Positions 2,700 to 25,306 of a DNA stretch of 64,000 bases are shown piece by piece. Source of the DNA: Streptomyces sp. f51 (GTDB lineage: Bacteria; Actinomycetota; Actinomycetes; Streptomycetales; Streptomycetaceae); NCBI RefSeq assembly GCF_037940415.1, contig NZ_CP149798.1:3713001-3777000 (forward strand). The letters are read 5' to 3'. Made by a program: the position numbers and the translations under genes. The notes beneath the pieces were generated by a model that saw only the letters and a list, made by a program, of their open reading frames with translations, was not told the origin of the DNA and did not search any database. The first letter of the stretch is position 1. Every line of letters starts with the position of its first letter.

Positions 2700-3230
2700 C
2701 GGAGCGAGGTTACGGCCACTCTCCACAGATGTGGCGACTTTCTTCCGTCCACATCCTGGGGACTGGGAAGTTGTCCAGATCCTGTCCACAGGCAGCACTG
2801 TTGAAAGACCATCAGACCAGGTCAGCCCCCTGTGGATTCGTGGACGAAGACTCTCCACAGCCTGTGGACGATGAAAAGATCCACAGGGTGTGCGCAGAGT
2901 TGTCCACCGTCGGCCCACAGATCCGAGCCGGTTGTCCCCAGCGATCTCCCGCTTCTCCACATCTCTGTCCACTGTTCGGCAACGCGCCGAGCCATCTCAC
3001 CGCGTCGAGTGAAAGGCGTCACACCGAGGTGCCGGATTGGCCTGTGGGGAACCGGGGTAAAGCTGGGGACGACGCTGGGGAGAAGTCGCCCCTCGCTGTG
3101 GACCGAGTGTGCAGAACTTTTCGTCGTCCACAGATACCCCGGGTTGTCCACCGCCTCCACCCACAGGGTCGGTGGACAAAAAATCGCCTCTGAGCTGCGA
3201 AAACGGGGTTATCCACGGTATCCACAGGCC
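2700..3230. other. oriC: Chromosomal origin of replication oriC
   Basis: The region between dnaA and dnaN is crowded with DnaA boxes on both strands. I count 18 nonamers with no more than two differences from TTGTCCACA/TTATCCACA. They start at 2719, 2771, 2782, 2831, 2851, 2863, 2877, 2900, 2932, 2953, 2965, 3043, 3097, 3124, 3144, 3171, 3209 and 3218. Reverse-oriented boxes are those at 2831, 2863, 3043, 3097 and 3171. Number, spacing and position between dnaA and dnaN match the known Streptomyces oriC type (about 19 boxes, no E. coli-like AT-rich 13-mers). No protein gene fits here. Confidence 0.95.
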
Positions 3231-3468
3231 CTACTACTAAGACCAACTAGAGAGAGCCTGGGAATCGTTTCGAAGTGGGGGCTGTGCACAACTTGCCCTC
3301 GGACGCTCGACTGCCGCTCGGCACGACTTGACCCCGAGGGGCAACGACTGTCAGCGCGGTGCGTCAGACTGGTCCCCGGTGTCCTTCCCCTCAGCGGTCG
3401 GAACGACACCGGTCAGACGACGAAGGCCAGCAGGGCGAGAGCGCCGGCAACAGACGGAGGCGGCAACG
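3231..3468 (+). promoter_or_regulatory. dnaN leader/promoter region (no gene)
   Basis: This is noncoding sequence between the last oriC DnaA box and dnaN. An open frame upstream of dnaN has no ribosome-binding site or familiar sequence. The dnaN ribosome-binding site CGGAGG lies at 3455-3460. Confidence 0.5.
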
Positions 3469-22927: not shown

Positions 22928-23839
22928 ATGGACCAGCAGCCGCCCGGCAGCCCGCAGGGACCGCCGGATCAGGGACCACAGGACGCCCGGAGCCTGCCCG
23001 GCTGCTACCGGCACCCGGACCGCGAGACCGGCGTGCGCTGCACCCGCTGCGAGCGCCCGATCTGCCCCGAGTGCATGGTCAGCGCCTCGGTCGGCTTCCA
23101 GTGCCCCGACTGCGTCCGCGGCGGCTCCGGCACCGGACATGCCCCGGCGGCCAATCAGCCCCGCACGATCGCGGGCGGCGCCGTCGCGTCCGACCCCCGG
23201 CTCGTCACCAAGGTGCTGATCGGCCTCAACCTGGCCCTCTATCTTGTCCAGGTCTCGGTGGGCGACGCCTTCACCAACAGCTTCGACCTGTTCGGCCGTG
23301 CCTGGCTCTCCGGTGAGGTCCAGGGCGTGGCCGAGGGCCAGTGGTACCGCATGGTGACGTCGATGTTCCTGCACGGCAGCGTCATGCACATTCTTTTCAA
23401 CATGGTCAGCCTGTGGTGGATCGGCGGCCCGCTGGAGGCGGCCCTCGGCCGTGCCCGCTACATCACGCTGTACTTCGTCTCGGGCCTGGCCGGCAGTGCG
23501 CTCACCTATCTGCTCGCGGGCCCGAACCTGCCGTCGCTCGGTGCCTCCGGCGCGATCTTCGGTCTCTTCGGTGCCACCGCGATCCTCATGCGACGCCTCA
23601 ACTACGACATGCGCCCGGTCATCGGCCTGCTGGTGGTCAATCTGATCATCAGCTTCTCGCCGGGGTTCAACATCGCCTGGCAGGCCCACGTCGGTGGTCT
23701 GATCGGTGGCGTCGTCGTCGGCTACGCGATGGTCCACGCTCCGCGCGAGCGGAGGAACCTCGTCCAGTACGGGGTGGCCGGGCTGATGCTCGCCGCGGTG
23801 ATCGTCACGACGTTGCTCAGAACGGCACAGCTCACCTGA
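22928..23839 (+). CDS. Rhomboid-family intramembrane serine protease with zinc-finger N-terminus
   Basis: A 303-residue protein with ATG after GAGGGGACCCC. The N-terminus holds a B-box-like zinc finger with Cys26, Cys38, Cys41, Cys46, Cys49, Cys59 and Cys62 (CTRCERPICPEC, CPDC). The rhomboid domain has six or seven membrane helices. The catalytic dyad is Ser207 in GASGAIFG and His254 in QAHVGG; His154 and Asn158 in HILFN complete the oxyanion region. Substrate unknown. The finger-rhomboid fusion is common in Streptomyces. Confidence 0.93.
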   Translation: MDQQPPGSPQGPPDQGPQDARSLPGCYRHPDRETGVRCTRCERPICPECMVSASVGFQCPDCVRGGSGTGHAPAANQPRTIAGGAVASDPRLVTKVLIGLNLALYLVQVSVGDAFTNSFDLFGRAWLSGEVQGVAEGQWYRMVTSMFLHGSVMHILFNMVSLWWIGGPLEAALGRARYITLYFVSGLAGSALTYLLAGPNLPSLGASGAIFGLFGATAILMRRLNYDMRPVIGLLVVNLIISFSPGFNIAWQAHVGGLIGGVVVGYAMVHAPRERRNLVQYGVAGLMLAAVIVTTLLRTAQLT

Positions 23840-23869
23840 GACCCCGTTCGGCTCACCTGAGAAGTGATG

Positions 23870-24069
23870 TTGTCCACAGACCGCGGCCGATCTTGTGCAC
23901 CCTGTGCGGGAACAGCTGTGCCCCCTGTCGCTGACCCGGGTTTTCCCAGGTCGGACAGGGGGCGAACAGGTTTGCGGGAGCTTGGGGGCCGGTCACACCG
24001 GCGTCAACCGCGGATTAGTTATCCACAGATCGTCTTTCTTTTCCACCTGTGGACAAGTGTTGTGGATAA
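23870..24069. other. Cluster of four perfect DnaA boxes outside oriC
   Basis: Within 200 bases are TTGTCCACA (23870-23878), TTATCCACA (24019-24027), and inverted copies at 24048-24056 (TTGTCCACA) and 24061-24069 (TTATCCACA). All four match a DnaA-box consensus exactly, which is stricter than most oriC boxes. The last three lie within 51 bases. The stretch 23840-24129 has no gene; it is downstream of both the rhomboid gene and crgA. Streptomyces is known to carry DnaA-box clusters outside oriC that titrate DnaA. Confidence 0.8.
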
Positions 24070-24129
24070 CTCAGTGGACAGCTGTGGGCAGAGCTCGGGC
24101 CCGCGTTGCTTCCATCCGGGCGAAGACGG

Positions 24130-24384
24130 TCACTTCCACTGGGTGGAGACGCCGAAACCGGCCGCGATGAAGCCGAAGCCGACCACGATGTTCCAGTTGT
24201 CGAGCGCGTCGATCGGCAGGGAGCCGTCCGTCACGTAGAAGACGACGATCCAGGCGAGGCCGATGAGGAACATGGCCAGCATGGCCGGTGCCACCCAGGC
24301 GTTGCTGTTCATCTTGATGGTGGTCGCCTGCTTCGCCGGGGGCGGCGTGTAGTCGGCCTTCTTGCGGATACGTGACTTCGGCAC
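24130..24384 (-). CDS. crgA: Cell division inhibitor CrgA
   Basis: An 84-residue protein from GTG 24384 after AGGAGAG. It is basic at the N-terminus ([16 protein letters not shown]), with two membrane helices ([20 protein letters not shown] and [20 protein letters not shown]). Length and motifs match Streptomyces CrgA. CrgA influences FtsZ-ring formation in aerial hyphae and, in mycobacteria, bridges FtsZ to septal penicillin-binding proteins. It lies next to the extra-oriC DnaA-box cluster. Confidence 0.95.
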
Positions 24385-24526
24385 GAGGGTCTCTCCTGTC
24401 GATGCGCTGCGTGGCCGCGCAGGGAACTGGGGCGGGCTCCGGGGCAGCGTACAAGGGGAAACTGAGCGCTCCCCCGGGCGTCAGTTAGCGTAGTGCTTCC
24501 GCGGCGCCGAAGGAGATAAGGGTACG

Positions 24527-25306
24527 TTGAGCAATTCTGCCGACTCCCCCGGGACGAATTCCAGTCCTGGCGGTACGCACCGTTTCCGTCCGGTACGCGT
24601 CCTCACCGTGGCCGTCTTCGCGCTCGCGGGACTCATCTTCTTCACGAGCTTCGACACGGCCAAGGGTACGAACATCCGTACGGACTCGTCGATGCTGAAG
24701 CTCTCCGACCTGATCCAGGAACGCAGCCGCAAGAACGCGACGCTGGACGAGTCCAATGGTGCCCTGCGCCGCGACGTGGACGGCCTCGCCGGCCGCGAGG
24801 ACGGCAGCAGCGCCGCCGGGGACGCCAGGCTCGCGGCGCTGGAGAAGAACGCGGGCACCCGGAAGACCAAGGGGCAGGCCCTCACGGTCACCCTCAACGA
24901 CGCCCCGCCGAACGCGACGGCGAAGCTCCCCGGCTACCCCGAGCCGCAGCCCGACTACCTCGTCATCCACCAGCAGGACCTCCAGGCGGTGGTGAACGCC
25001 CTGTGGCAGGGCGGCGCCAAGGGCATCAAGGTCATGGACCAGCGTCTGATCTCCACCAGTGCCGTGCGCTGCGTCGGCAACACCCTGATCCTCCAGGGCC
25101 GCGTCTACTCGCCTCCCTACAAGATCACCGCTATCGGCGACCCGGCCAAGCTCCAGAAGTCGCTCGCCGCCTCCCCGGCGATCCAGAACTACATGGTGTA
25201 CGTCAACGTCTACGGGCTCGGCTGGAAAGTCGAGGAGAACGGGACGGTGACTCTTCCCGGCTACTCGGGCACAGTGGATCTGCACTACGCGAAGCCCGTG
25301 CAGTAG
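24527..25306 (+). CDS. DUF881 family membrane-anchored protein
   Basis: A 259-residue protein with a TTG start 10 bases after AAGGAGA. Residues 24-42 form a signal-anchor helix (VLTVAVFALAGLIFFTS), followed by a coiled-coil-like charged segment (about 55-100) and the DUF881 domain (about 105-255), with VNALWQGGAKGIKVMDQRL and the GWKVEENGTVTLPGYSG ending. The fold resembles periplasmic division/secretion partner proteins. Exact role unknown. It starts the plus-strand sortase run and is divergent from crgA. Confidence 0.88.
   Translation: MSNSADSPGTNSSPGGTHRFRPVRVLTVAVFALAGLIFFTSFDTAKGTNIRTDSSMLKLSDLIQERSRKNATLDESNGALRRDVDGLAGREDGSSAAGDARLAALEKNAGTRKTKGQALTVTLNDAPPNATAKLPGYPEPQPDYLVIHQQDLQAVVNALWQGGAKGIKVMDQRLISTSAVRCVGNTLILQGRVYSPPYKITAIGDPAKLQKSLAASPAIQNYMVYVNVYGLGWKVEENGTVTLPGYSGTVDLHYAKPVQ

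Follow-up and report, generated by a model that had tools for sequence, protein, structure and literature searches.

A DnaA-box element that includes four exact consensus boxes lies at the 3' end of crgA in Streptomyces sp. f51, and related arrays occupy the same place in most of the sampled families of the class Actinomycetes; for this reason we think that the element probably helps to control the timing of chromosome copying. The cluster is best read as a DnaA-binding control site, because it is strongly conserved, close to oriC, located 3' of both flanking genes and free of a recognizable sigma-70-like promoter. To our knowledge, once-per-cycle control of initiation in actinomycetes is little known relative to that in E. 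coli. An earlier note, made from the DNA sequence alone, had described the site as a compact cluster of four boxes. The boxes are real, but they form part of a larger element, whose head-to-head box pair, palindrome, phasing and class-wide reach the note had missed.

The window, by which we mean the whole 64-kb stretch of DNA analysed, contains nine perfect DnaA boxes, defined throughout as exact matches to TTRTCCACA, and the cluster accounts for four of them. Box 1 (TTGTCCACA, 23870–23878) and box 2 (TTATCCACA, 24019–24027) are exact matches on the forward strand, while box 3 (TTGTCCACA, 24048–24056) and box 4 (TTATCCACA, 24061–24069) are exact matches on the reverse strand. All four thus fall within 200 bp and three of them within 51 bp, two of these reversed, in agreement with the earlier description. 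In an excerpt of PMC4285127, TTGTCCACA is given as a high-affinity DnaA box of S. coelicolor. A degenerate box, TTTTCCACC (24039–24047, forward strand), abuts box 3 and forms the forward half of a head-to-head pair; at this position many relatives read TTTTCCCCA. Boxes 3 and 4 are set in a 12–13 bp register that is kept in relatives, and a weak third reverse box, AGTGGACAG (24073–24081, reverse strand), can be read from the sequence in the same register. In nearly all genus and family loci that we compared, box 2 is the box at the core.

Genome-wide (8.15 Mb) there are 68 perfect boxes versus 21 matches to the reversed pattern, and among the genome's listed perfect boxes the crgA cluster alone has four in 200 bp. 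At the background rate, the probability of at least four boxes per 200-bp window is about 2.5e-13, or about 1e-8 genome-wide over non-overlapping windows, so that the clustering is far beyond chance. The boxes also match the consensus better than most oriC boxes, as had been claimed, because the oriC stretch (2771–3291) contains 12 one-mismatch boxes and no perfect one. The cluster is intergenic and lies, as originally placed, beside crgA and about 21 kb from oriC, between the convergent ends of a rhomboid protease gene (22928–23839, forward strand; Pfam Rhomboid, 1.1e-38) and crgA (24130–24384, reverse strand; Pfam CrgA, 1.4e-29), whose 3' end it follows and whose product is up to 94% identical to CrgA of named Streptomyces relatives. 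With at least three consensus boxes between two genes and near oriC, it has the make-up of an extra-origin cluster of the S. coelicolor type; at this distance it lacks the adjacency to dnaA that marks oriC itself. A promoter role had been judged unlikely, and this judgement holds, since the site is 3' of both flanking genes and no sigma-70-like promoter was found in 23800–24500. No Rfam RNA was found at E 0.1 within 23500–24700, and a terminator scan requiring a T-run reported none around the crgA/rhomboid intergenic region. An inverted repeat, GCCCCCTGTC...GACAGGGGGC, read from the sequence between boxes 1 and 2 (23920–23963), may act as a hairpin terminator for the two convergent genes.

Within Streptomyces, a search with CrgA of 111 genomes, including the source genome, gave matches in 110. 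The intergenic region 3' of crgA contained four, three, two and zero perfect boxes in 16, 80, 12 and 2 of the 110 loci, respectively, and hence at least two in 108 genomes; both boxless loci also had no rhomboid match there. In a set of 80 named Streptomyces loci, from genomes partly shared with the genus set, every locus had at least two boxes, and 255 boxes were found in the 52 kb lying within 650 bp 3' of crgA compared to 3 in the remaining 441 kb. The usual core reads AG-TTATCCACA-GATC...TTTTCCCCA-N(0-2)-TGTGGAYAA-NNN(N)-TGTGGAYAA, with at least one of the later boxes often degenerate. Among 16 other genera of the Streptomycetaceae, for which we examined 41 of 51 genomes, all 41 loci carried at least two perfect boxes.

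Outside the Streptomycetaceae, we examined 85 genomes from 35 families, out of 130 with a CrgA match, and left out any second locus from a genome already represented. A perfect box lay within 320 bp 3' of crgA in 56 of the 85 genomes, and two boxes, with one mismatch allowed, lay within 60 bp of each other in 68. One or the other was present in 73 genomes and 30 of the 35 families, and neither in 12 genomes, whereas 1084 control windows from the same loci contained a perfect box in seven cases and two boxes in four (about 1%). For 40 of the 85 loci, held out as a set, predictions were written beforehand; 28 of these 40 had a perfect box, with 35 boxes in 12.5 kb versus 4 in 221 kb. Since 12 of the 85 genomes outside the family and 2 of the 110 within Streptomyces show no element, it is dispensable or movable. 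We found no description of a DnaA element 3' of crgA in the PMC literature, judged by titles and abstract openings among the matches listed, a scope that does not take in the 2006 study of S. coelicolor clusters.

The element tracks the 3' end of crgA even where the neighbouring gene is a different one. As CrgA is a division protein, this constancy would also suit a DnaA-controlled transcription element, which would block read-through or drive an antisense or neighbour transcript and so couple crgA or the next gene to replication. At two loci of one family (f4), an open reading frame of 143–183 codons on the crgA strand starts close after the element, which makes a promoter role possible at those two loci. 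However, the nearest long gene, by a rough codon test at 70 loci, was convergent in 58, co-directional in 9 and unassigned in 3, and in Streptomyces the element sits 3' of convergent genes, with no sigma-70-like promoter found in the stretch scanned in the window. We therefore regard a role in transcription as unlikely, and two features of the element's geometry, described below, speak against it as well.

The head-to-head pair, defined as TTRTCCACA-N(0-2)-TGTGGAYAA with at most three mismatches overall, was found in 67 of 110 Streptomyces loci versus 0 of 278 control windows, in 32 of 41 loci from other genera of the family versus 0 of 124 controls, and in 60 of 85 class loci versus 3 of 1084 controls. 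The only other convergent pairs of perfect boxes in the source genome with a gap of at most 30 bp are at 3640328–3640361, between a MerR-family gene and a gene for a KptA-like RNA 2'-phosphotransferase, and at 3193675–3193695, inside a long reading frame with a cyclase domain. The core of the crgA element, in which one strong box opposes two tandem boxes 3–4 bp apart, is built as in DARS1 and DARS2 of E. coli, and head-to-head contact is a prominent DARS feature according to an excerpt of PMC5742627. Such a likeness could mean that the element aids the exchange of ADP for ATP on DnaA and so promotes initiation. The opposed strong boxes are, however, 20 bp apart at crgA versus about 8 bp in the DARS2 primer shown in an excerpt of PMC4585315, on which the boxes were placed by eye, and we consider an activating site of this kind improbable.

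The element further includes a palindrome. In the first class set, the 14-mer TNACACNNGTGTNA with at most two mismatches was about 25 times as dense 3' of crgA as in the rest of the sequence (44 in 14.7 kb versus 20 in 169 kb, counts that include one genome twice), and its flanks extend it to a 20-bp palindrome, GAATNACANNNNTGTNATTC. The aligned loci were picked by the inner pattern, so the conservation of the inner columns follows from that choice, and the independent columns are the flanks (−3 to −1 and 14 to 16). The palindrome was present in 66 of the 85 class loci and in 32 of the 40 held-out loci, with 36 copies near crgA versus 27 in 221 kb in the latter. Its start follows a forward box by 32–34 bp in 25 loci and a reverse box by exactly 23 bp in 14; of the 47 loci with a palindrome as well as a perfect box, 38 showed at least one of these fixed spacings. 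The spacing of 32–34 bp had been predicted; of the 12 held-out loci in which a perfect box faces forward, 9 showed it, and the remaining 28 loci all lacked it. The 23-bp spacing was unpredicted, having been seen in the held-out set and then counted across all 85 loci. At five loci of family f19, the palindrome is directly followed, at a 14-bp step, by a second and weaker one, and in several of them a reverse DnaA box comes next.

In Streptomyces, a match to the palindrome with at most three mismatches, which reads TCACACCGGCGTCA or nearly so, lies 25–27 bp 5' of a forward box in 105 of 112 loci. The copy in the window, TCACACCGGCGTCA (23993–24006), is degenerate and lies 26 bp before box 2, where it forms a putative partner-protein site; the window has no other match to TNACACNNGTGTNA with at most one mismatch. 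This copy is more than two mismatches away from the 20-mer; the source genome has a single site within that limit, at about 7.5 Mb. Among the other Streptomycetaceae genera, only 14 of 41 loci keep a copy at 26 bp, and the partner is therefore not universal. Relative to the boxes, the palindrome lies towards crgA in the 38 class loci with fixed spacing and away from it in Streptomyces, for which we have considered an inversion of the whole module. This difference in side also argues against an element that serves transcription.

Allowing two mismatches, the 20-mer occurred 1–11 times per genome in 31 of 31 genomes, crgA sites included, compared to 0–3 times for a reversed control, and this excess points to what is likely a small set of sites for one protein outside Streptomyces. 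The 14-mer alone occurred 0–4 times per genome in 25 genomes, which is about control level and speaks against a large regulon. As the partner at the palindrome, MtrA is a weak candidate. Its site is given as a direct repeat, GTnACC-n5-GTnACn, in an excerpt of PMC13189361. The Streptomyces copy, GTCACA-CCGGC-GTCAAC, is two specified positions off this site and the class palindrome three. We scanned the neighbours of 23 listed palindrome sites away from crgA, using reading frames chosen by length, some of which may be wrong; two sites precede M23 peptidase genes that are orthologous to each other, one precedes an NlpC/P60 gene, and the neighbours of the other 20 are unrelated or unassigned. Genes for peptidoglycan hydrolases of the M23 and NlpC/P60 types are MtrA-type targets. 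At two loci of family f19 (L279 and L280, 1501–1520), a palindrome with one mismatch is found about 30 bp before genes for PcsB-like M23 peptidases. No link of MtrA to the crgA site was found in the literature searched, which included excerpts of PMC6265350, PMC5650626 and PMC13189361. BldD was rejected as the partner, since the BldD box, TNAC(N)5GTNA in the excerpt available, has a spacer of five and the palindrome one of six.

The distances between box 1 and box 2 approximate whole helical turns. Those in Streptomyces fall near 115, 137, 148, 159, 169 and 180 bp, those in other genera near 82, 113, 125–129, 138, 148, 158, 169, 179 and 189 bp, and 38 genus-distinct values gave R=0.58 at 10.5 bp, a value reached by none of 20,000 jittered sets in a test that is generous, as it counts distinct spacings within one genus as independent. 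Without Streptomyces, phasing was still seen (n=22, p=0.001); spacings of 55, 88 and 155 bp were off-phase. The spacing from box 2 to the reverse boxes had its best period at 12, because the tandem register is 12–13 bp, and p=0.04 at 10.5 bp for pooled distinct values; helical phasing is claimed for the distance between boxes 1 and 2 only. This phasing points to two bound patches that would face each other, as in a loop. In an excerpt of PMC13270200, the DnaA domain I dimer is conserved across Actinomycetes and self-contacts of DnaA are proposed as links between distant boxes, both of which suit looping. A simple transcription block would not predict helical phasing across 14 turns. The same geometry bears on passive titration, in which the number of boxes would matter and not their structure. 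High-affinity boxes close to oriC are what such a site would offer, and titration by origin-proximal, DnaA-motif-rich DNA has been argued for E. coli in an excerpt of PMC12371093; counting, however, needs no fixed spacing, orientation, phasing or palindrome, and we find titration alone an improbable account of the element.

We measured the distance between crgA and dnaA in 60 genomes chosen for their few contigs, with six of the distances assuming circular contigs. It was 18–44 kb in 27 of 28 Streptomyces genomes, 16–38 kb in 6 of 6 others of the family and 9–133 kb in 26 of 26 outside it, and 9–133 kb in 59 of the 60 genomes overall. In one single-contig Streptomyces genome, crgA and dnaA are 6.3 Mb apart and two boxes are still present at crgA. 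This distance may reflect a rearrangement or an assembly error; unless the assembly is wrong, the persistence of the boxes suggests that closeness to oriC is not strictly required.

The source genome has a second DnaA-box cluster in the pheA-serS intergenic region (3629400–3629697), 86 kb from oriC and on its other side, with a long-range box spacing of its own. The 600 bp before serS contained boxes in 30 of 30 Streptomyces genomes, 2 of 5 other genomes of the family and 0 of 22 outside it, counts that exclude 1 of 31 genus genomes and 3 of 30 other genomes without a usable serS locus. Gene order at serS was checked within Streptomyces, and a pheA-serS cluster that had moved elsewhere would escape the count; within this sample, the cluster is confined to the Streptomycetaceae. 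A 2006 study in J Bacteriol by Smulczyk-Krawczyszyn reportedly named three S. coelicolor clusters, D78, H24 and H69, and deletion of D78 is said to have raised initiation; class-wide reach, a palindrome and phasing are reportedly not among the features it described. Going by the cosmid order, the pheA-serS cluster is probably D78, and the crgA cluster is probably one of the other two, perhaps H69. The earlier note had invoked an S. coelicolor cluster that restrains initiation as precedent for the crgA site. Such clusters do exist, but the one with the deletion phenotype is probably at pheA-serS and the precedent was thus probably assigned to the wrong locus.

Altogether, the geometry of the element, its deep conservation and its proximity to oriC are better explained by a DnaA control complex than by a promoter, a terminator or the number of boxes alone. 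We give about an even chance to the more specific proposal that it is an old, origin-proximal DnaA control element that restrains re-initiation. DnaA would bind the strong boxes and then spread across the weak ones, on a core made up of the head-to-head pair and the tandem reverse boxes; in the Streptomycetaceae, looping would bring one more box to this core, usually from a distance of about 14 helical turns, and a second protein at the palindrome would set the geometry, a role that IHF plays at datA or DARS2. Replication reaches the element shortly after oriC, so that it would take up or inactivate DnaA right after initiation, and the sign of its effect would hence be a restraint on re-initiation. 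More tentatively, and with less confidence, we suggest that the element might be the Actinomycetes' own ancestral counterpart of datA and DARS, in which head-to-head boxes would be combined with a 20-bp palindrome. A second regulator, perhaps MtrA, which controls division and the cell wall, would bind this palindrome, and the composite, fixed 3' of crgA no more than about 130 kb from oriC, would let the state of division or of the envelope gate DnaA. In this scenario, the D78-type cluster would have been added later in Streptomyces. An element kept at one place across so many families provides a concrete locus for deletion and pull-down, and its palindrome a handle on the partner protein. Furthermore, separating the old class-wide element from the younger Streptomyces cluster shows which cluster to test for which role.

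The closest known systems are the D78, H24 and H69 clusters of S. coelicolor, which are likewise extra-origin clusters of high-affinity boxes near oriC, and one of these clusters is probably orthologous to the crgA locus. According to excerpts of three later papers, datA-like DnaA-box clusters repress untimely initiation in S. coelicolor. Excerpts of PMC5742627 and PMC4585315 say the same of the extra-origin clusters of B. subtilis (Okumura 2012). Compared to DARS1 and DARS2 of E. coli, the crgA element shares the opposition of one box to two tandem boxes and differs in the spacing of the opposed boxes. With E. coli datA, as far as the excerpted descriptions go, it has in common a non-coding box cluster near oriC, conserved spacing and, next to the boxes, a putative site for another protein; in families other than the Streptomycetaceae, the palindrome at fixed spacing from the boxes is the candidate for such a site. 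The boxes of datA surround an IHF site, however, whereas the palindrome of the crgA element is no known IHF site, and the two elements are not orthologous.
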